Source of the DNA: Lachnospiraceae bacterium | Lineage (GTDB): Bacteria; Bacteroidota; Bacteroidia; Bacteroidales; Muribaculaceae | Direction: 5' to 3' | Length of the DNA stretch: 64,000 nt | NCBI GenBank assembly: GCA_023663655.1 | Contig: JAMPGZ010000002.1 | Span: 1 to 64,000, forward strand | Shown here: positions 594-24,800 of the stretch, one piece after another | Layout: the number at the start of each line of letters is the position of its first letter | Numbering within the stretch: position 1 is the first letter of the stretch | The notes under the pieces: generated by a model | Seen by the model: only the letters and a program-made list of their open reading frames with translations | What the model was told of the DNA's origin: nothing | Database searches by the model: none | Translations under genes and position numbers: made by a program

Positions 594-1487
594 CTATTTT
601 GCCGGATAGCGTTTTACGTCTGATGACAATTTCTTTTTCAGATCCACAAATTTATTAACATTAAGTTGCTTCAGCAGATCACACAAATGATATCCTATTT
701 CATTTCCGTTATGCTTTAGTGGTTCGTCAAAAATCAACTTAGCACAAAGTTTGCCTTTATTTATTGACCATTTAACATATACAGAAAGTGGTCTTGGACC
801 ATCCCATTTTTTCTTATCATGCCTATAGTTTAATGCTTTGCAAGCAAAATATATGGTCTGATTTTTTGCGTATTCCTCTATTGGTTGTAGCATATCTAAA
901 CATTCAGCTAAATCTATATCGCGTTCATCAAGTTCTATTATATAATTTGCAACGCCTGAATTTTCTACTACCACACCATCGATCTTACTGTTCCTTTTGT
1001 CGGGAGAAAGATTTATTCCGGCAAAAATATCATATTTCTGCATATCGGAAAGTTCCATTACTTCCGATTTTAAACCACCCTGCTTGTTGAGTAATTCAAA
1101 TTTCCAACCTAATTTAATCGTTCCAGCTTCAGTTTTGCCCTGAGATTCAAAATACACCAATGAATCCTCGTCAAAACTATCTTTAATAGAAGTCGTGCAT
1201 CTTTCTATAATCTGTTCAGCCTGCGGTCCTAAAATCTCTTTAGCTCGTTCCAGTGAAATCTTATTTTCCAAAAAGTCAGCATTAAATTGCTTCACTGAAA
1301 TCTTTATCTCCCTAACCTCACCATCGGCAGATTGTCCTTTAACATAAACATCTGTTTTACATTCGCCACTGGATGGTCTCGGCTTTCCACACAATACAAT
1401 TTTGTATTCCTTACCTTCAAAAATAAATTTCTCCTCGTTTTTGAATAAATCTACTATCTTTTGTTCCGAATCAATAAATTTAGGCAT
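594..1487 (-). CDS. Predicted type II restriction endonuclease of the controller-regulated R-M system
   Basis: A 297-aa protein with no signal peptide or membrane segment. It has a plausible PD-(D/E)xK core: K-T-D46 on a strand after a Pro-rich loop (residues 35-48), then E60-I-K62 about 14 residues later. It follows the controller gene by 15 bp and shares its promoter; the M gene lies upstream. Because the methylase is closely M.HaeIII-like, the expected target is GGCC and the nuclease is probably HaeIII- or NgoPII-like. That specificity is inferred from the partner, since I could not match the nuclease itself. The gene is clearly more AT-rich than the housekeeping genes nearby, which fits acquisition by transfer. 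Confidence 0.72.
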   Translation of the reverse strand: MPKFIDSEQKIVDLFKNEEKFIFEGKEYKIVLCGKPRPSSGECKTDVYVKGQSADGEVREIKISVKQFNADFLENKISLERAKEILGPQAEQIIERCTTSIKDSFDEDSLVYFESQGKTEAGTIKLGWKFELLNKQGGLKSEVMELSDMQKYDIFAGINLSPDKRNSKIDGVVVENSGVANYIIELDERDIDLAECLDMLQPIEEYAKNQTIYFACKALNYRHDKKKWDGPRPLSVYVKWSINKGKLCAKLIFDEPLKHNGNEIGYHLCDLLKQLNVNKFVDLKKKLSSDVKRYPAK

Positions 1488-1502
1488 AATAACAAATATT
1501 AT

Positions 1503-1703
1503 CTACAACAAATCTTTAAGTGAAATCCCTAAAGCCTTAGCTATCCTATCGGCAATTTTCAATGACACATTACGCTTGCCTTTCTCAATATCAGGTAAAT
1601 ATGTTCTATCAATCTCAGCAAGATTTGCTAAGGCTTCCTGCGATAGTCCAAGAGATAACCTCTTGTCCCTCACTTTATTTCCAAAAGTTTCATTAATATC
1701 CAT
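1503..1703 (-). CDS. R-M controller (C) protein, XRE-family HTH
   Basis: A 66-aa protein that is almost entirely an XRE helix-turn-helix (residues about 8-62: LGLSQEALANLAEIDRTYL, then IEKGKRNVSLKIADRIAKALG). This is the size and fold of C proteins such as C.PvuII and C.Esp1396I, which bind a C-box, first activating then repressing their own C-R operon so that methylation precedes cutting. It lies between M and R on the same strand, 15 bp before R. The ATG is only 8 bp from a TAnnTTTG element, so the message is probably leaderless, as known for C.Esp1396I. The matching operator lies immediately upstream. Confidence 0.9.
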   Translation of the reverse strand: MDINETFGNKVRDKRLSLGLSQEALANLAEIDRTYLPDIEKGKRNVSLKIADRIAKALGISLKDLL

Positions 1704-1710
1704 GGTTGCA

Positions 1711-1758
1711 CAAAATTAAAGTCATGTGGACAATTATGCAACGGACTATAGTCTACAT
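1711..1758 (-). promoter_or_regulatory. C-box operator overlapping a Bacteroidota promoter
   Basis: Read on the minus strand, a C-box-like element spans 1758-1724: outer arms ATGTAGAC and GTCCACAT are inverted repeats (7 of 8), and the distal half contains GACTATAGTC as in published C-boxes. A TTG (1741-1739) lies in the operator between the half sites. It is followed after 20 bp by TAATTTTG (1718-1711), a perfect TAnnTTTG -7 element. The expected start of transcription falls at or just before the C ATG (1703). Binding to the proximal half would cover the -33/-7 spacer and repress; binding only to the distal half could activate. Confidence 0.85.
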
Positions 1759-1824
1759 CATCGTAGATAAGTTATTTATTTTCAATAGCATTAAATTTAA
1801 GACTATCTTACTTCAAAATATAGC

Positions 1825-2862
1825 CTAATATTTATCTGAAACAATAATTCCTTTACCGATTAAAGTTTGTTTTATCTGCATTGCAACATGATATGCAAGA
1901 TTCACCGGCACAGCATTGCCTACCATCTTATAACCATAATTCACATCGTCATATCTAAATATAAAATCATCTGGAAAACTCTGTACTCGAGCCACCTCAC
2001 GAACCGTCATACGGCGATAAAGATGTTCGCTCCCCGGAGCAAATTTCTGCAAATTCTTTTCTACTTTAATCATTTTAGGTGCTTGCGGATGCAATTGACA
2101 TTGACGACCGCTTGCTTGTACTGTGAATCCTGGTTCATCCCAAGCTCTAACTCTATTACGCGACATAAAGATAGGAGAATACGCCCCGATGAAATACTCA
2201 TGATTGGGTTTATGACATTTAGTGCCATTAGTCTTGTTTTTATCAAGAGCCGGAATCGCAGAATCTTTCAAATCCCAAATACATTCTCTAAGAGTAGGCT
2301 TATGCTTCTTAGGCACAGGATATTCAAAATCATGTATATTCAAATCTTTGCGGAATCCTATATAGAATACCCTATCTCGATCCTCTGCCACATCGTAATC
2401 ATTGGCATTCAGCATCTTAAGATTAACATCATAACCGGCTTCATCAAACAATCTCATGAATCCATCAACAGCCGACGAATGTCTTTTTGCAAGCATCCCC
2501 GAAACATTTTCAGCGACAAAGAACAGTGGTTGCTTATCACGAAGAATTCTTATATACTCATAAAACAATTGACCTCGTGCGTCATCAATTCCTTTCAGTG
2601 ACCCGGCCTCACTCCATGATTGACAAGGAGGGCCTCCGATGATGCCAGTAATGCCATCAGGAAAGTAACACGACGGAATTCTACGAATGTCACAATCTAA
2701 AAGCCTTACATCTGGGAAATTAGCACGATACGTAGGACAAATTTTCTTATCAAATTCGTTTGCAATTACTGTTTTGAAACCGGCATTATGGAAACCCAAA
2801 TCCAAACCACCAGCTCCAGAGAAAAGACTAATCAAAGTCAGCATATCGTGCTTTTTATCCAT
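1825..2862 (-). CDS. DNA cytosine-5 methyltransferase, M.HaeIII-like (predicted GGCC)
   Basis: Contains the 5-methylcytosine methylase motifs in order: FSGAGG (I), GGPPCQSWS with catalytic Cys near residue 80 (IV), AENVSGM (VI), a D-R-D-R-V motif VIII, a target-recognition segment with [31 protein letters not shown] (IX) and [13 protein letters not shown] (X). The IV region and the recognition segment closely resemble M.HaeIII as I recall it, so GGCC modification is predicted. A longer start at 2880 lies 2 bp from a -7 element and would not be transcribed, so I chose the next ATG at 2862; 2844 ([10 protein letters not shown]) is also possible. The gene has its own promoter, separate from the C-R promoter, so it can be expressed before R. 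Confidence 0.93.
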
Positions 2863-2881
2863 ACTTCTAAGTTTCGTCATG

Positions 2882-2889
2882 CAAAGTTA
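2882..2889 (-). promoter_or_regulatory. -7 element (TAACTTTG) of the methylase gene
   Basis: A perfect TAnnTTTG lies on the minus strand ending 1 nt before the upstream-most ATG. It rules that ATG out and supports a start at 2862. No good -33 TTG at 19-21 bp was seen. Confidence 0.6.
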
Positions 2890-2931
2890 CTGAAATACAC
2901 TGAAACATATATCTCCTGATAGAAATAAGTT

Positions 2932-2967
2932 TTTTGAATAGAAATTCAGAGATGAAGCTATTCAAAA
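2932..2967 (-). terminator. 10-bp hairpin between the long pdxJ-side operon and the R-M system
   Basis: TTTTGAATAG (2932-2941) pairs perfectly with CTATTCAAAA (2958-2967) around a 16-nt loop. It begins 9 bp after the lipoprotein gene stop (2976, minus) and lies before the methylase promoter, so it probably ends transcription of the 12083-2976 run. Confidence 0.5.
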
Positions 2968-2975
2968 TATCCATA

Positions 2976-3545
2976 TCATAGTTCAAGCCCTATGCCTTTG
3001 TAGAGGACTGAGGTGCGTTCCCATTGCGGATCATGTTCGATGACATAGGAAAATGGGCGTAGATACTTTTCGCTGTTAGAAAATTCCGTAATGGCTTTAT
3101 AAGCCGCCTCTGCATCACGTACACGCCAAAGGCAGAGCATGGTACCGTCAATCAAGGTGTGACCTACATATATCGCGTTGACAGGTTTTAAATCGCCATT
3201 GACGAGTGAATCAATTTTATCTTCAGTTTTATACAACGGTTCAAATTCCGACTCCACCGGCAACCTGTCATCGGTCATATTTTCGATATATATACACACA
3301 CTGCACTCCCAGGGATATGCTCCTTTAGGTTCATATCCTGCAAGCGATGAATTAATCATAGCCGTACCATAATGTTTGCCATCATTAACTTCAGCTCCGA
3401 TAAATACCGAATCTGTAACAGCTACCGGCTCAGGTAACTGAACCTTCTGCACGGCTTTCTTTCTGCTGCTGCAATAATTCAACAGCAGGATTGTGACGAT
3501 CGAAATCACTATTGCAAAAATCATATTCATAGAGTGTTTTTTCAT
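2976..3545 (-). CDS. Hypothetical membrane-anchored or lipoprotein-like protein
   Basis: A 189-aa protein. An N-terminal hydrophobic stretch (residues 8-24) is followed by LLLNYCSS, which could serve as a lipobox with Cys25 but is not canonical. The rest is a soluble domain with W-containing strands (PWECSVCIYIEN; LCLWRVRD) and no family I can name. It is the last gene of the minus-strand run, 17 bp after the AlkD-like gene, so it is probably co-transcribed with it. Function unknown. Confidence 0.7.
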   Translation of the reverse strand: MKKHSMNMIFAIVISIVTILLLNYCSSRKKAVQKVQLPEPVAVTDSVFIGAEVNDGKHYGTAMINSSLAGYEPKGAYPWECSVCIYIENMTDDRLPVESEFEPLYKTEDKIDSLVNGDLKPVNAIYVGHTLIDGTMLCLWRVRDAEAAYKAITEFSNSEKYLRPFSYVIEHDPQWERTSVLYKGIGLEL

Positions 3546-12782: not shown

Positions 12783-13652
12783 ATGAGAATAGCGGTATTC
12801 GGCAACACTTATCAGGAAAGATACATCGACGGCATCGACAGACTGTTCAAAATTCTGTCGCAACGCAACGTGTGCATAGAGATGGAAGCATCATTCTATG
12901 AATACCTGTGCCACATCCTGCCCTCTCCGCCTCAGATAAACGAAACAATCAACGACCACAACTTCGATGCCGCCCTCGCGATGAGCATCGGAGGTGACGG
13001 CACATTTCTGCACACAGCCCAATGGATCGGCGAAAAGGAGATTCCAATATTAGGCATAAACACCGGACATTTGGGATACCTCGCCGACGCATCGATTGAA
13101 AACATCGAGTCTTCACTCGATGATATCTTCATGGGACATTACCGCATCGAATCACGCACCATGATCAAGGCGACAAGCCCCGACTGGGGAGACGCTCATC
13201 CACGATATGCACTTAATGAGGTGGCGATAATGAAGAACGACACCTCGTCAATGGTAGACATGGATGCCCTTATCGACGGTGTAAAAGTCGCTAATTACCG
13301 TGCTGACGGACTTATCATATCCACCCCCACCGGCTCCACCGGATATAACCTTTCCGTTGGTGGTCCCATTGTGGCTCCACTCGCTCCGGTGTGGATCATA
13401 TCGCCCATCGCAGCACATTCACTGACCATGCGCCCGCTTGTGGTGAGCGACGAAAGCATAGTGTCGGTCACAACGCGGTCAAGAAGCGAATCCTACCGTA
13501 TAAGCCTTGACGGACGGTCATTCTCAATGGCTGAAAGCACCACGATTGTCATGCGGCGGGCACCGTTCGTGACTAAAGTAGTACAACGCAGCGATCATCA
13601 ATTCATCGAAACACTGAGATCAAAATTATTATGGGGAGTCGACAAACGATGA
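12783..13652 (+). CDS. nadK: NAD kinase
   Basis: Phosphorylates NAD to NADP in the cytoplasm. The 289-aa protein has the family motifs GGDGTFLH (70-77, catalytic Asp72), GINTGHLGYLAD, NEVAI and the phosphate-binding TPTGSTGYNLSVGGPIV. Length is normal for bacteria. The 3' end overlaps the start of the metallopeptidase gene by 22 bp, indicating coupled translation. nadB, an earlier enzyme of NAD synthesis, lies at the far right of the window. Confidence 0.96.
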   Translation: MRIAVFGNTYQERYIDGIDRLFKILSQRNVCIEMEASFYEYLCHILPSPPQINETINDHNFDAALAMSIGGDGTFLHTAQWIGEKEIPILGINTGHLGYLADASIENIESSLDDIFMGHYRIESRTMIKATSPDWGDAHPRYALNEVAIMKNDTSSMVDMDALIDGVKVANYRADGLIISTPTGSTGYNLSVGGPIVAPLAPVWIISPIAAHSLTMRPLVVSDESIVSVTTRSRSESYRISLDGRSFSMAESTTIVMRRAPFVTKVVQRSDHQFIETLRSKLLWGVDKR

Positions 13653-14347
13653 AATTCATGCACAATGAAATAGGTCCCATCGAAATCACGTTCCGCAAAA
13701 ACACATCGAAAATCAGCGCCCGATGGAAAAACGGAGTCGCTGTCTTCATTTTTCCTGAAAGCATAGACCGCAGAGAAATCCCCGATTATGTAAACCGTAT
13801 GGCGAGTGCTGTCATTGCGCGACGGCATGACGTGACATTCTCCGAAAACCAGGTGATTGAAGTGCCGGGATTCACATTCTTGATAAGCCGGCAGTCCCAT
13901 CAGCCACGCAACGTGTGGGGCACCGTCAAAGACCGCAAAGCCTATATCGAAGTGGGGACACTTCTTGACTTTGACAACCTCAACGTGAAACAAAGCATAT
14001 CACGTATCATGAGCAACATAGCCCACGACATCGCTGCCGAGATATTGCTCCCAAGAGCCAAAGAGGTAGCGGCAACAATAGGAGCATCGCCTCGCTCATG
14101 GGCGATAATGAACGGATTCAAAACATTGGGAAAATGTTCGTCACGCGGCGATATTCACATCAGTTATATGTGCCTGTTTCTGCCTCTTGAACTCAGGGAC
14201 TACATCGTGTGCCACGAACTCGCCCATCTCAGCGAGATGTCCCACTCTCCGCGTTTCCACGCTATATGCGACCATTACTGTGACGGCAAAGAAAAAGAAC
14301 TCATCCGCAAGCTGAACCACTTCCCCTGGCAAATCCTCCGCCGCTGA
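13631..14347 (+). CDS. YgjP/SprT-like (DUF45) metal-dependent hydrolase
   Basis: A 238-aa protein with the DUF45 zinc motif: CHELAHLSEMSHSPRFH (residues about 195-211), an HExxH-type HELAH with a downstream His as third ligand. N-terminal beta-rich residues 8-100 match the family. It is the last gene of the CBS-nadK operon and converges on the pdxB operon. At its stop, the hairpin CCGCCC (14352-14357) / GGGCGG (14370-14375) is the likely shared terminator; the second R-M cassette is inserted exactly here. Confidence 0.85.
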   Translation: MGSRQTMKFMHNEIGPIEITFRKNTSKISARWKNGVAVFIFPESIDRREIPDYVNRMASAVIARRHDVTFSENQVIEVPGFTFLISRQSHQPRNVWGTVKDRKAYIEVGTLLDFDNLNVKQSISRIMSNIAHDIAAEILLPRAKEVAATIGASPRSWAIMNGFKTLGKCSSRGDIHISYMCLFLPLELRDYIVCHELAHLSEMSHSPRFHAICDHYCDGKEKELIRKLNHFPWQILRR

Positions 14348-14351
14348 GACC

Positions 14352-14375
14352 CCGCCCTATTTCACTTCGGGGCGG
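14352..14375. terminator. Hairpin at the ygjP / inserted methylase boundary
   Basis: CCGCCC (14352-14357) pairs with GGGCGG (14370-14375) around a 12-nt loop, 4 bp after the ygjP stop. In the reconstructed pre-insertion sequence the same hairpin would lie at the end of pdxB, serving both convergent operons. Confidence 0.5.
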
Positions 14376-15703
14376 TAATCAACAATCTCGTCACACACCA
14401 TTCCTTCAAATAATCCATGAAGTTTAGTATAGTGTCTGCATTCCGCCGACTCTTCTCCAAAAGACATTGATTCACAACCTTTCATATCATTAAACAACCT
14501 GATCAATGAACGACCTATGGCCCATGCAAGATTGACAGGCACCGCATTTCCAATCTGTTTGTACTTAGAGCCTAAGCTGCCTTCAAATTGCCAGTCATCA
14601 GGAAATGTTTGAATTCTAGCATATTCCCGCACAGAAAGCGGACGAGTCTCAAGTGGATGGCATCTTTCTGTTTGTTTTTGCGCTGGTGCACATGTTAAAG
14701 TCAGACAGGGTTCATCCAAAGCCAAGCGACGAGCCATTCCTGTTTTTCCACCACCCAACTCATAACTACCTTTCATGTATTCACGGGCGATCTCTTCCGG
14801 AAGGTTTCTCCAGTCACCACCTTCAGGAACCATTTCCATTACACGTCTTTTTGAATCAGGATATTTTTGTCCCTCCGATGATGGAACATCTTCGGGGTAA
14901 AGTTCTCCTGCGTAAAAAGCATCTCTAAGAGTCCTTATACCAGGATAAACATCGGGCCACTTATATTCAACATTTTGGGCAAAATCATTTCTGATTGCAA
15001 TTAAAATAAGCCTTTCTCTCTTTTGAGGTACATTATATTGTATAGCACGAAGGACTCGTGGTTCAACTAAGATATATCCTAATTCATTGATCACTTTTTT
15101 TATAGTTTGCAGAGTGCGTCCTTGATCATGCTCTACCAATCCTTTTACATTTTCACACAAAAATACTTTGGGCTGAATCTCTTTCACTGCTCTCGCTAAT
15201 TCAAAAAATAGTGTTCCTCTGGTTTCTTCAAACCCTAAACGCTTACCGGCATAAGAAAACGCTTGGCAAGGAAATCCTCCTGAAAGAAAATCTACTTTAT
15301 CTCGAAATTGAGTGAAATCAATCTGATGGATATCGCCTTCCACCACATTCCAATTCGGTCTATTTTTACGAAGTGTCTCACATGCAGAATGATCAAATTC
15401 ATTAAGCAAAACATGATTAAAACCAGCTAACTCCATCCCTAAAGCTAATCCACCACCTCCTGCAAATAATTCGACCGAAGTATATCGTCTCAATGGATTT
15501 ACAACAAGCTCTTCATCCCATCTTGATGCGAATATAGCAGCGATTTCAGGAACAGACTTTACATCTTCATAATAAAAAAAACGATTCCCAGACTCATCAA
15601 TCTGCAAAGGAAACTTGCCAGTTCTAATCCACGACTCTACTGTCGCCCTTGATACTCCAAGCAAGTCAGCAAAATTATTGACTGTAATTTTACGATTCTC
15701 CAT
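14357..15703 (-). CDS. DNA cytosine-5 methyltransferase with N-terminal HTH (Sau96I/Eco47II-like, predicted GGNCC)
   Basis: A 448-aa protein. Residues 6-55 form a helix-turn-helix (ITVNNFADLLGVSRATVESWI, then a wing-like YYEDVKSVPEI). The catalytic part follows: ELFAGGGGLALGM (I), GGFPCQAFSYAG (IV, catalytic Cys), CENVKGL (VI), QKRERL (VIII), a recognition region with GKTGMARRLALDEPCLTLT, VREYARIQTFPDDW (IX) and [13 protein letters not shown] (X). An HTH extension occurs in methylases of the Sau96I/Eco47II group, where it may regulate the operon. The last six codons and most of the stop are identical to the end of pdxB (20-bp repeat). The start is 5 bp after the nuclease stop. Confidence 0.9.
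   Translation of the reverse strand: MENRKITVNNFADLLGVSRATVESWIRTGKFPLQIDESGNRFFYYEDVKSVPEIAAIFASRWDEELVVNPLRRYTSVELFAGGGGLALGMELAGFNHVLLNEFDHSACETLRKNRPNWNVVEGDIHQIDFTQFRDKVDFLSGGFPCQAFSYAGKRLGFEETRGTLFFELARAVKEIQPKVFLCENVKGLVEHDQGRTLQTIKKVINELGYILVEPRVLRAIQYNVPQKRERLILIAIRNDFAQNVEYKWPDVYPGIRTLRDAFYAGELYPEDVPSSEGQKYPDSKRRVMEMVPEGGDWRNLPEEIAREYMKGSYELGGGKTGMARRLALDEPCLTLTCAPAQKQTERCHPLETRPLSVREYARIQTFPDDWQFEGSLGSKYKQIGNAVPVNLAWAIGRSLIRLFNDMKGCESMSFGEESAECRHYTKLHGLFEGMVCDEIVDYRPEVK
14358..14377. repeat. Left copy of the 20-bp direct repeat
   Basis: Identical to 16529-16548; flanking bases on both sides differ between copies. On the minus strand it encodes in frame Y-R-P-E-V-K at the C terminus of the methylase. 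It also contains the 3' arm (GGGCGG) of the ygjP/pdxB terminator hairpin. Confidence 0.95.
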
Positions 15704-15708
15704 ATTGC

Positions 15709-16470
15709 TTAATTCGTCAATGTGTCAAAACCCTCGTATGTAGAGAATGCTAGAATATAAAGAGCTGTCAACAAATCGGAATGTTCTTTTATAAGTTCTT
15801 TATAAACAGTGTTTGTTAAAGCTAATTCATCATTATTACGAATAACATCTTCTATTATAGTTGGCAATGCAAAACATAACTTGAAAAAAGCTTTGGAATC
15901 TCCGAAAACAAGCTCATAAAATTTGTCCATGGACATACGTCTTATCCTATTATGCCCTCTTGTCTTTTTATCCAAAGTAATACGCCAAGTCTCGTCTTTT
16001 GATTTTTTTGAAATCACTTCTACAAGATAGCATATTGCTTTATCATCATCCAGCAATTTGGACTGCATCTTCATATATGTTTTTTGAGAAGATGCCGAAT
16101 TCATAGTATTATGCTTATTTTTCAACTCCACATAGATGTGAAGTTCATCATTTTCAACGTCAAAACCCTCCTTAGGCACCTTCCAATTACCACCAGCATA
16201 TTTAAACAAATTCTGATGAAAATATCCTATTTTATTAGTATTTGACTTATCTATTTGTCTGAAACACTCATCCTCGATGGCTTGTTTGAGACTCTTACCA
16301 TAAACCTTAGAATCAAATGTAAGCTTGATAGGATCAACAATATTCTCATTAAATTGAGCTAAAGTAATCTCTCTACGATATGCTTCAACCGTAAGTTTGA
16401 CATGTTCGTATATTGCTTCATTAGATATGAATCCAAGGTTATAGTCTTGCATAATATAATTTTGACACAT
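15709..16470 (-). CDS. Eco47II/Sau96I-family type II restriction endonuclease (predicted GGNCC)
   Basis: About 253 aa from the ATG at 16470; a start at 16452 is also possible. A TTG at 16482 lies inside the -7 element and is excluded. The core fits RE_Eco47II: F-D-V-E-N-D followed by YVELKNKHNTMNSAS, giving a PD-(D/E)xK set (Asp near 104, E115-x-K117 in this numbering), preceded by NLFKYAGGNWKVP. The enzyme should cut GGNCC, matching the methylase encoded 5 bp downstream. Specificity is inferred from family resemblance. Low GC compared with the neighbours. Confidence 0.85.
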   Translation of the reverse strand: MCQNYIMQDYNLGFISNEAIYEHVKLTVEAYRREITLAQFNENIVDPIKLTFDSKVYGKSLKQAIEDECFRQIDKSNTNKIGYFHQNLFKYAGGNWKVPKEGFDVENDELHIYVELKNKHNTMNSASSQKTYMKMQSKLLDDDKAICYLVEVISKKSKDETWRITLDKKTRGHNRIRRMSMDKFYELVFGDSKAFFKLCFALPTIIEDVIRNNDELALTNTVYKELIKEHSDLLTALYILAFSTYEGFDTLTN

Positions 16471-16479
16471 GATATTATA

Positions 16480-16487
16480 CAAAAGTA
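16480..16487 (-). promoter_or_regulatory. -7 element (TACTTTTG) of the second R-M operon
   Basis: A perfect TAnnTTTG lies 9 nt before the ATG at 16470, inside the inserted segment about 40 bp from its right edge. The cassette therefore brings its own promoter. A TTG lies 23 bp upstream, slightly far for a -33 element. Confidence 0.6.
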
Positions 16488-16527
16488 CTCATTTTCCTGC
16501 AAATTTCCTACAAGAATAAACACTTAA

Positions 16528-17532
16528 TTATTTCACTTCGGGGCGGTAGGCGTAGGTGTTGCGTAGTGATTCAAATGCCACAGGGTCCTGTTTAAGCGAC
16601 GCGGTGTCGACCTGTGGAGAATAGCTTTCGGTCACGGCAGTCCATGTGACTGATGCGGCAGCCCCTGCCGGAACAGATTCCTTTAGCTTCACAGGTGCAA
16701 GATTGAAGTGACGGCAGAATGCGTCAAGCGACATTTGGGTTGCCCTTATCTTTCCTTCACGCGAATATCCGGCTATGTGGGGTGTGGCGATAACAGCTCT
16801 GTCAAGCAGCTCACTGGATATATCCGGCTCATTTTCCCAGCAGTCAATCACCGCAGCCTTCACCACCTCTTCATCCAGCATTTTCACGAGAGCGGAATTG
16901 TCGACAACTCCGCCACGAGCAGCATTGATTATGACCGGACAACGCTCAATGGATTTTGCAGCCTCGGCATCAAGCAGATGATAGGTGGGATATTTTCCTT
17001 CACGTGTCAATGGAGTGTGGAATGTGATTATGTCCGACTCACTTAGAATCGTCGAAAAGTCGCAAAAACCGTCAGCTCCTTCTCTCTCACTGCGTGGAGG
17101 GTCGCATAGCAGCACTCTGAAGCCGAGCTGTCGAGCCCACCGCTCCACAATCTTGCCCACGTTTCCGACTCCCACGATGCCCATTGTCATCGTGCCGGCA
17201 TCACGCCCATCCAACAATGGCGCTACTGAAGCAAACACATACTGAGCCACTGCGGGAGCATTACACCCCGGAGCATTGGCAACGGCAATGCCATTCTTCC
17301 TGCAATAGTCCAAGTCGATATGGTCAGTGCCGATGGTAGCGGTGGCGATAAACTTACACCTTGATCCATCAAGCAACGAAGCGTCACATCGGGTACGGGT
17401 GCGGGTGATAAGGGCGTCGGCATCCTTCATAGCCTCGCGTGTTATCTCGTCAGCCGACAGATACCTCACATCGGCTATATCGTCAAGATACCCGTGTATA
17501 AAAGGTATATTTTTCTCGATTATTACATTCAT
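16528..17532 (-). CDS. pdxB: Erythronate-4-phosphate dehydrogenase
   Basis: Oxidises 4-phosphoerythronate in the DXP-dependent vitamin B6 pathway. The protein is 334 aa from ATG 17532 (MNVIIEKNIPFI); the longer open frame upstream overlaps the neighbouring gene and lacks family similarity. The D-2-hydroxyacid dehydrogenase fold is shown by NAPGCNAPAVAQYV, the Rossmann motif GIVGVGNVG, FHTPLTREGKYPTYHLL, NAARGGVVDNSAL (Arg), and the C-terminal Glu/His pair (WENEPDI; TPHIAGYSREGK). It overlaps the upstream membrane-protein gene by 4 bp. The R-M insertion directly after the stop has removed the 5' arm of its terminator hairpin. Confidence 0.93.
   Translation of the reverse strand: MNVIIEKNIPFIHGYLDDIADVRYLSADEITREAMKDADALITRTRTRCDASLLDGSRCKFIATATIGTDHIDLDYCRKNGIAVANAPGCNAPAVAQYVFASVAPLLDGRDAGTMTMGIVGVGNVGKIVERWARQLGFRVLLCDPPRSEREGADGFCDFSTILSESDIITFHTPLTREGKYPTYHLLDAEAAKSIERCPVIINAARGGVVDNSALVKMLDEEVVKAAVIDCWENEPDISSELLDRAVIATPHIAGYSREGKIRATQMSLDAFCRHFNLAPVKLKESVPAGAAASVTWTAVTESYSPQVDTASLKQDPVAFESLRNTYAYRPEVK
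16529..16548. repeat. Right copy of the 20-bp direct repeat
   Basis: Identical to 14358-14377. Here it is the natural 3' end of pdxB, encoding Y-R-P-E-V-K and the first two bases of the stop codon on the minus strand. Confidence 0.95.
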
Positions 17533-22593: not shown

Positions 22594-23346
22594 ATGAAAA
22601 TTGCATTAATAGGCTACGGCAAAATGGGTAAGGCGATAGAGAGCATCGCCATTCAACGCGGACACACCATCGTGTGCAAAATAGATGTCGACAATCAGGA
22701 TGATTTCGATTCCGAGGAATTCGGATCAGCCGACATTGCTATCGAATTCACGACACCCGCTACCGCCGTCGCCAACTATAAGCGCGCATTCTCACGAGGC
22801 GTGCCGGTAGTATCGGGAAGCACCGGTTGGCTCGCCGAAATGCCACAGATAAAGGCTATGTGCGACAATGGCGAGGCTACATTCTTCTGGACCTCCAATT
22901 TCTCTCTCGGCGTGAACATCTTCTTCGCTGTCAACAAGTATCTCGCGTCACTCATGGCAGGGTTGCCCCAATACACCCCCTCAATGACCGAGGTGCACCA
23001 CATCCACAAGCTCGACCACCCAAGCGGAACGGCAATCACCCTCGCCGAAGGAATCATCGAGAAGGACAGCAACATCAAGAGCTGGACTGAAGCCGACCAA
23101 CACGCCGACGACCAGATCCGCATAACCGCCGAGCGCGAAGGTGAAGTGCCCGGAACCCACATCATAAAGTGGGAAAGCGAAGCCGATGCTATCACCATTG
23201 AACACCGTGCCAAATCACGCATGGGATTTGCCCTCGGAGCTGTCATGGCGGCTGAATGGGCGTGTGGTAAAAAAGGATTTTTGACAATGGACGAGATGAT
23301 GCACAGCCTTGTGGCTGAATCTCAACTCCTCGATATTATAAAGTAA
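22594..23346 (+). CDS. dapB: 4-hydroxy-tetrahydrodipicolinate reductase
   Basis: Lysine and diaminopimelate pathway reductase. The protein is 250 aa from ATG 22594 (MKIALIGYGKMGKAIE, NAD(P)-binding Rossmann motif); upstream in-frame codons precede the promoter and are excluded. It also has VSGSTGW, the substrate motif EVHHIHKLDHPSGTA and RAKSRMGFALGA. It is followed after 5 bp by lepB and then wbqC, a synteny seen in Bacteroidales. Confidence 0.95.
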   Translation: MKIALIGYGKMGKAIESIAIQRGHTIVCKIDVDNQDDFDSEEFGSADIAIEFTTPATAVANYKRAFSRGVPVVSGSTGWLAEMPQIKAMCDNGEATFFWTSNFSLGVNIFFAVNKYLASLMAGLPQYTPSMTEVHHIHKLDHPSGTAITLAEGIIEKDSNIKSWTEADQHADDQIRITAEREGEVPGTHIIKWESEADAITIEHRAKSRMGFALGAVMAAEWACGKKGFLTMDEMMHSLVAESQLLDIIK

Positions 23347-23351
23347 TCGTA

Positions 23352-24800
23352 ATGACTGTAAAACCATCTTTCGCCGATGATTTCAAACGCCGCATAAAAG
23401 AGGTGAAGCCCACCCGGTGGGCACGGTTCACAATTGTAGCGCTTATATTCATCGCCTGGGTAGCTTGGCTCGGAAGCTGGTGGGTGCTCATATTCCTCCC
23501 GCTTCTGTTTGACATATACATCACCGGCTATATACCCCTCACCTGGTGGAAAAAGAGCAAGAGCAAAACCGTGCGCTCAATCATGAGCTGGGTCGATGCC
23601 ATCCTCTACGCCCTCATCCTTGTGTATTTCGTGTTCACATTCATAGGGCAGAACTACCAGATTCCATCTTCGTCACTTGAAAAATCGCTCCTCGTAGGCG
23701 ACTATCTGTGGGTGAACAAGACCGCCTACGGTCCTCGCGTGCCGATGACCCCCATCCACTTCCCGCTGGCTCAGCACACTCTCCCTGTAATCAACACCAA
23801 GAGCTACATCGAGTCACCGCAATGGAAGTACAAGCGCCTCAAGGGGCTCGGAAAGGTGGAACGTGGCGACATTGTGGTGTTCAATTTCCCCGCCGGCGAC
23901 ACTGTAGCCACAAAAATGCAGAATCCCGACTATTACACCCTCGTGAATATGTTCGGACGATTTGCCGTCCACAACAATAAAGAGCAGTTTGGCGACATTA
24001 TATACCGTCCGGTGGATCGTCGCGAAAACTATGTGAAGCGTGCCGTAGGACTTCCGGGCGAAACAATATCAATAGTCGACGGTGTGATACACATCGACGG
24101 CAAGCCCATCCCGCAGCCTCAGAACGTGCAGTTCAACCACTTCTTCCAGCTAAAGGACGGAATGATGACCGAGCAGGACTGGGAACGTCTCGGAATAAGT
24201 GTCGATGACCGCCACATGGTGCCACTTTCAGCTCAGGATGTGGCAAACGTAGCGGCAAACGGATTCCTTGTGCGTGAAGACGGATCAGTGCCACCCATCT
24301 ACGCCTCCCCGCTCACTCCGGCTATGGTCGACGCTCTCGAAGCTGACCCGCGCGTGGCAAACATCATGAAGGTGCCAGCATCGGAATCCACTCCGCTATT
24401 CCCCGATAAAATCTCGCAGGGATGGACACGCGCCGACTATGGCGAGCTATGGATACCCAAGAAAGGCGAATCCATCGAGCTGACACCTCGCAACTGGGAC
24501 ATATACAACCGCTGCATACGCAACTATGAAGGTCACCATGACGCATACATAAAAGATGATGTGGTGTACATTGACGGAAAGCCCGCCAAATCCTACACAT
24601 TCAACATGGATTATTACTTCATGATGGGCGACAACCGCGACAACTCTGCCGACTCTCGCTATTGGGGATTCGTGCCCGAGGACCACATCGTCGGAAAACC
24701 GTGGCGTGTGCTCGTATCATTTGACAAAGACAAGAACCTGTTCAATGGCGGAATAAGATGGAACCGCGTGTTCAAACCCGCCAACCCCGACAAAGAATAA
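23352..24800 (+). CDS. lepB: Signal peptidase I, large Bacteroidota form
   Basis: Cleaves signal peptides of exported proteins. Two N-terminal hydrophobic segments (about 26-62) and a further helix (82-99) lead into the catalytic box YQIPSSSLEKSLLVGD (Ser near 108). ENYVKRAVGLPGE holds the catalytic Lys, and GDNRDNSADSRYWGFV is box E. At 482 aa it is much longer than E. coli LepB because of an insertion between the boxes, normal for this phylum. The stop overlaps the wbqC ATG (TAATG). Confidence 0.94.
   Translation: MTVKPSFADDFKRRIKEVKPTRWARFTIVALIFIAWVAWLGSWWVLIFLPLLFDIYITGYIPLTWWKKSKSKTVRSIMSWVDAILYALILVYFVFTFIGQNYQIPSSSLEKSLLVGDYLWVNKTAYGPRVPMTPIHFPLAQHTLPVINTKSYIESPQWKYKRLKGLGKVERGDIVVFNFPAGDTVATKMQNPDYYTLVNMFGRFAVHNNKEQFGDIIYRPVDRRENYVKRAVGLPGETISIVDGVIHIDGKPIPQPQNVQFNHFFQLKDGMMTEQDWERLGISVDDRHMVPLSAQDVANVAANGFLVREDGSVPPIYASPLTPAMVDALEADPRVANIMKVPASESTPLFPDKISQGWTRADYGELWIPKKGESIELTPRNWDIYNRCIRNYEGHHDAYIKDDVVYIDGKPAKSYTFNMDYYFMMGDNRDNSADSRYWGFVPEDHIVGKPWRVLVSFDKDKNLFNGGIRWNRVFKPANPDKE

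Follow-up and report, generated by a model that had tools for sequence, protein, structure and literature searches.

We analyzed a stretch of 64,000 nucleotides (nt) of a Muribaculaceae genome (the window; positions 1-64,000 of the forward strand of contig JAMPGZ010000002.1, assembly GCA_023663655.1) that carries a restriction-modification (R-M) cassette at the 3' end of pdxB. Positions 14357-16528 hold, on the minus strand, an endonuclease gene (R) followed by a methylase gene (M), with pdxB upstream on the same strand and a ygjP-like gene convergent on the other side. A 20-base-pair (bp) direct repeat borders the cassette. The features concerned are as follows:

14358-14377, minus strand: repeat copy 1, on the ygjP side; last 6 codons of M (YRPEVK) plus TA of its TAG stop
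16529-16548, minus strand: repeat copy 2; natural 3' end of pdxB (YRPEVK plus TA of TAA)
14378-16528, minus strand: R-M cassette, most likely inserted; 2,151 bp without the repeats, 36.8% guanine-cytosine (GC)
14357-15703, minus strand: M, C5 cytosine methyltransferase, 448 amino acids; last five residues (RPEVK) likely from pdxB
15709-16452, minus strand: R, Eco47II-family restriction endonuclease; start ATG at 16452 (MQDYNLGF) chosen by eye
16528-17532, minus strand: pdxB, 334 amino acids, frame intact; last stop-codon base from the cassette
13631-14347, plus strand: ygjP-like metallopeptidase gene, convergent neighbor, frame intact

The repeat and the cassette

The repeat, TACCGCCCCGAAGTGAAATA on the minus strand, closes pdxB and M alike. 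Its two identical copies lie 2,171 bp apart and read Y-R-P-E-V-K in frame on the minus strand. Just these two copies were found in the window when up to 3 mismatches were allowed (shuffling expectation, 0.01), and just two in the whole 2.9-Mb genome at up to 2 mismatches. The last base of the repeat is the second of the stop codon, and the two stop codons therefore differ: that of pdxB (16528-16530) consists of TA and an A that lies outside the repeat and belongs to the cassette, and that of M (14357-14359) consists of TA and a G that lies outside the repeat on the ygjP side.

The GC content of the cassette interval was 36.8%, compared to 46.1% for the remaining window. R matched the RE_Eco47II domain (Pfam PF09553, E = 1.3e-80, 270 bits), and its start was placed at ATG 16452 because relatives begin there; the mechanical open reading frame (ORF) extends to 16482. 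M matched the C5 methylases (Pfam PF00145, E = 1.9e-85) and carries intact FAGGGG, FPCQ, ENV, and GNAVPV, which we take to be C5 methylase motifs. The specificity of Eco47II is presumably GGNCC. Besides R and M, the single ORF of at least 60 amino acids in the cassette was one of 91 amino acids, antisense within M. No transposase or integrase gene was found in the cassette by ORF list or Pfam, and a repeat search of the window returned no inverted-repeat pair connecting both cassette ends.

An original prediction, made from the DNA letters, had described identical 20-bp direct repeats bounding an AT-rich Eco47II-like R-M pair with no transposase or integrase inside, and had read the ends of pdxB and M in the same frame as YRPEVK-TAA and YRPEVK-TAG. 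The composition, the domain matches, the gene content, and the minus-strand reading all agree with this description; the repeat itself stands as identical and in frame, with the small correction that it ends one base short of the full stop codon.

Origin of the methylase tail

The same prediction held that M had borrowed its last codons from a host gene, and methylase C termini at other loci were compared accordingly. A YRPEVK or RPEVK ending was absent from all 29 family methylase loci compared with the window (51 other genomes had a match, and these 29 were reported as loci) and from all 119 of the best-matching methylase relatives listed out of 7,981. Y443 was near-invariant among the methylase relatives (15 aligned rows) and was followed by variable tails, often LSSSQK or SSHK; one relative, P0017, ends GYRPS. 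All 6 PdxB relatives at 87-98% identity end AYRPEV(K/R), and among 120 PdxB rows listed, the window's own included, the final 12 residues contained YR-x-E in 92, YRPEV in 22, and RPEVK in 13. Because close PdxB relatives have YRPEV(K/R) and no listed methylase relative has RPEVK, we read the tail as that of PdxB and the own last codons of M as lost. These comparisons bear out the predicted borrowing and suggest that M likely took its last five residues (RPEVK) and its stop from pdxB. Elsewhere in the family, DNA similarity between L066 and L079 (86%) stops exactly at codon 443, and that between L063 and L064 (88%) continues past the stop; drift of a free methylase tail could yield either end point.

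Could the tail have arisen with no target duplication at all, through an earlier tandem 20-bp duplication or through chance or gene conversion? Beyond Y443 the methylase tail varies naturally, with P0017 ending GYRPS. However, the identity spans 20 nt, including synonymous positions and the first two bases of the stop codon, exact repeats of at least 19 bp occurred in none of 3,080 mismatched locus pairs, and a related cassette, L069, has a single-copy empty site. We therefore regard this explanation as highly improbable.

Related cassettes, empty sites, and the mode of insertion

Locus L069 (genome G278, genus g9; contig CAMWUX010000085.1 of a metagenome-assembled genome) has R and M directly after pdxB, between 19-bp repeats (CGCGAACCTCAATAATCAC) made up of the last four codons of PdxB, the stop codon, and 4 nt. 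The insert is 2,261 bp, and the cassette edge lies 55 nt beyond the stop of M. The genus search placed G100 (PdxB 94% identical) closest to it; there, pdxB is joined to the downstream flank with a single repeat copy, one base different. Positions 776-3272 and 5534-5786 of L069 match positions 1-2497 and 2479-2728 of L173 (3,079 bp, in which neither R nor M was found); the 19-bp repeat is precisely the stretch shared by both alignments, as target duplication predicts, and the duplication is thus directly visible.

The repeat starts 6 codons before the stop codon in the window and 4 codons before it in L069, 6 nt apart. We considered a single ancestral insertion at pdxB with vertical descent, and one clade of the window, L069, and L075 was rejected (p-AU, approximately unbiased test, 0.021). 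In the tree of 34 methylases, L069 with L075 was rejected (0.006), whereas the window with L069 (0.22) and the window with L075 (0.12) were not. The case for independent insertions in the window and L069 is therefore built on their differing end points and on the relative of L069 that is empty at this site, not on the tree. In L075 (5102-7400; genome G012), a cassette stands right after an abrB-like gene, where the start of pdxB is expected, and M is followed by a PdxB-like N-terminal remnant, NIIVENNIPTI (score 33, best of all loci, vs 22). An 11-bp repeat, AATATTATTGT, weak by control, flanks that cassette, and a full pdxB lies approximately 6 kb off in the opposite orientation.

Of 81 loci, the 56 cassettes that had R immediately upstream and sufficient flanking sequence, that of the window among them, were surveyed for exact repeats across the cassette. 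Repeats of at least 15 bp were present in 6 of the 56 (window, L069, L081, L089, L092, and L110), compared to 2 of 3,080 mismatched locus pairs, and repeats of at least 19 bp in 5 of the 56, compared to 0 of 3,080. In L110 (contig ONDS01000005.1, titled uncultured Prevotellaceae bacterium RUG216), the repeat is 109 bp long (106/109 identical); one copy is the 3' end of the upstream gene through the TA of its stop, which is also where the window repeat ends, and the second copy starts at the last base of the stop of M. A query with 104 of these 109 bp gave two matches in the L110 genome, and locus L195 of genome G416 has one copy. The cassette edge is at or inside the end of M in two cases, at codon 443 in the window and at the stop codon in L110. 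Three cases of target duplication are supported (window, L069, and L110), and repeat length and sequence vary among them (20, 19, and 109 bp). A repeat at L114 was dropped as a promoter-like motif by our own reading. At L089 (7395-7505), M is followed by what by eye looks like the opening 13 codons of a different C5 methylase (MKILSLFCGCGGI) and then by the 15-bp repeat; the insert seems to derive from a larger R-M locus severed at an arbitrary position.

Cassette-free ygjP-pdxB junctions were also aligned. In G018 and G123 (two species, genus g6), the two genes are convergent, abutting, and uninterrupted, with 3' ends overlapping by 14 nt; PdxB ends YRSEVKNIILE, not YRPEVK, and no second copy was found within the locus. 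Among 66 regions examined, G064 and G135 also have ygjP downstream of pdxB, separated from it but no more than 4 kb away. G006, the nearest relative among 13 other genus genomes compared (PdxB 75% identical), has both genes convergent on one contig, separated by approximately 1.6 kb of different DNA that lacks M; this junction insert (C200, approximately 22791-24360; L004, L166) comprises a secreted-looking ORF (by eye) and an inverted repeated sequence. The longest contig of the cluster of PdxB P0123 (98% identical) is 2.56 Mb, and no contig of that length stood among the best 120 of 7,981 methylase rows, which hints at an empty allele.

From the cassette, repeats, tail origin, and single-copy empty site of L069, all observed directly, we conclude with high confidence that the Eco47II-type cassette between two copies of the pdxB end most likely arrived by target-duplicating insertion, likely giving M its last five residues and stop. 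The predicted R-M mobility by insertion with target duplication thus draws support from the empty relative of L069 and from the rarity of such repeats in the control, and the cassette-free junctions did not refute it.

Several points weigh against this conclusion. Exact flanking repeats of at least 15 bp were missing from 50 of the 56 cassettes surveyed; target duplication is therefore not the sole mode, or repeats decay. The L081 repeat (42 bp exact, 73 bp imperfect) was dropped as dispersed, with further copies in the same genome, and those of L085 (84 nt, imperfect), L092 (60 nt, imperfect), and L089 (15 bp) were unchecked for dispersal and not counted. In the comparison with G416, another 4 kb of L110 DNA intervenes before synteny resumes, and L195 is therefore not a clean empty site. 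The empty junctions of G018 and G123 belong to another genus, with a partly different PdxB tail. The exact joined empty site of the window had 0 matches in the GTDB collection, from which the window's own or very near genomes were possibly left out, and the single-copy ancestor of the site is inferred, a conspecific empty allele not having been found there. The TAC codon of the repeat may be the own Y443 of M, or that of pdxB. Finally, template switching would leave the same trace as a staggered break.

Under target-duplicating insertion by a staggered break, the incoming DNA would be a linear R-M fragment with a promoter of its own and no special ends, interrupted within the final codons of M, and it would be joined into a break of approximately 20-nt stagger at the pdxB end. 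Fill-in of the single-stranded ends would create the second 20-bp copy. The upstream copy would preserve PdxB, and the downstream copy would give M its RPEVK and a stop codon composed of TA in the repeat and a G on the ygjP side. Cells that lost the cassette would then likely undergo post-segregational killing, as is reported for Type II R-M systems (PMC3031569), and cells that retain it would be favored. By analogy with Kobayashi's model (PMC3031569, PMC3874152), R-M attack could be the source of the break or the selection that retains the insert.

The duplication might also have happened elsewhere, with the window acquiring its cassette by homologous recombination with pdxB-locus DNA of another strain in which it was already present. 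Conserved flanks are commonly transferred by homology. The nearest methylase in the database search was 78% identical, with no near-identical one among the matches listed, so the event may have taken place in another lineage. However, a target-duplicating insertion would still be needed, and the repeat copy at the end of M matches the resident pdxB end exactly; we consider this route unlikely.

Site-specific integration, by a recombinase acting in trans and absent from the cassette, would make the pdxB end its target and the repeats its left and right attachment sites. Tyrosine integrases typically integrate at gene 3' ends with repeats, and two cassettes occupy the same pdxB end with repeat starts 6 nt apart. 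Site-specific insertion has also been suggested for a Helicobacter R-M cluster with a long target duplication (PMC4978471). Against this, the cassette has R and M only and no integrase, the repeats differ by locus in sequence and length, each matching its own host gene with no constant attachment sequence, 28 of 31 clade-1 cassettes lie in other neighborhoods, and R or M was found in 0 of 66 other pdxB downstream regions of the family. These data make site-specific integration quite improbable.

The last two results also bear on whether the pdxB end is a hotspot. The pdxB operon adjoins 3 of 31 clade-1 cassettes, and other neighbor-gene groups also attain three loci. No downstream gene family was common to at least 4 of 67 pdxB regions (L202-L261 and the genus loci). 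With neither R or M in the 66 regions nor a common downstream family, the site may therefore simply be a tolerant operon end. That Muribaculaceae R-M cassettes lacking a transposase repeatedly enter the pdxB operon by way of some targeting feature at its 3' end, the duplication repairing both the host gene and a broken methylase via captured final codons and stop, is doubtful. The upstream abrB-like gene adjoins pdxB in 10 of 12 genus loci, and the downstream operon end is highly variable.

Two further features were annotated near the cassette ends:

16453-16528, minus strand: cassette leader, with a TAnnTTTG promoter-like motif at 16480-16487, by eye
14352-14375, minus strand: predicted hairpin CCGCCC-12 nt-GGGCGG across the methylase-side repeat and the ygjP-side flank

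The TAnnTTTG motif presumably resembles the Bacteroidales promoter consensus and is a candidate only; a sigma-70-like promoter match lies at 16503-16474. The hairpin was no stronger than shuffled sequences (z = -0.96). A conserved leader of approximately 120 nt between promoter and R start was seen in L063 (5110-5245), L064, L065, L079, L090, and partly L085; it occurs in two methylase sub-clades of Eco47II-type cassettes and was not seen in the window cassette. It had no Rfam match at gathering in 8 loci scanned, and its consensus fold was weak (3 compensatory pairs of 21; single-sequence z of -0.9 to -2.1 in 4 sequences); judged by sequence, RNA control of R is possible. An N-terminal helix-turn-helix stretch in M (15605-15685, minus strand; PF12728, E = 2.8e-5, 24.7 bits, below the Pfam cut-off of 27) makes autoregulation of the R-M operon possible. 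GGNCC was scarcer than CCNGG in the window outside the cassette (43 vs 101 in 61.8 kb, ratio 0.43); same-genus loci had 104 vs 130 (0.80) without M and 65 vs 87 with M. The ratio over 80 named loci was 0.52 (987 vs 1902), and the scarcity in the window is therefore not clearly exceptional.

Relation to known systems

Since the Helicobacter comparisons of 2000, it has to our knowledge been an open question how small R-M systems spread if they lack a transposase. Nobusato et al. 2000 (Gene 259:99) and Furuta et al. 2010 (NAR 38:2428), known to us through citing papers, reportedly described R-M insertion with long target duplication. The cassette resembles Type II R-M systems of the Eco47II / RE_Eco47II (PF09553) kind, given its R match (E = 1.3e-80) and its C5 methylase. 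R-M insertions with long, variable target duplications are described in PMC3874152, PMC1643837, and PMC4978471. As in those accounts, the R-M pair here stands alone, is transposase-free, and has target-derived direct repeats of variable length; unlike them, the duplications include 20 and 19 as well as 109 bp, the hosts are Bacteroidales, and the last codons of M are likely replaced by those of the target.

PaeR7I likewise enters a new chromosomal site with target duplication, and 2 of 28 products came from illegitimate crossing-over at 1-3 bp identity; however, its movement uses the insertion sequences (IS) IS1 and IS5, with duplications of 8-10 and 4 bp, and the window cassette has no IS (PMC3031569). 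PabI-family insertion (PMC4615327) likewise involves R and M genes only, but it replaced 4 bp of target, and target site duplication is unclear in that case.

The window offers a recent-looking case in gut Bacteroidales, with perfect repeats, a related case with an empty site, and a methylase whose broken end was likely exchanged for target codons. Exact breakpoints can be read from the repeat ends; they fall within the final codons of M and within stop codons and constrain joining models; the pdxB end could serve as a defined target for R-M capture studies in culture. No target-borrowed methylase tail was recognized in the available portions of the literature on R-M target duplication or direct repeats, Eco47II, or Muribaculaceae R-M. 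R-M insertion with long target duplication is known already, having been described since 2000; what is new is the likely substitution of host codons for the last methylase codons, together with a second insertion at this end of pdxB.

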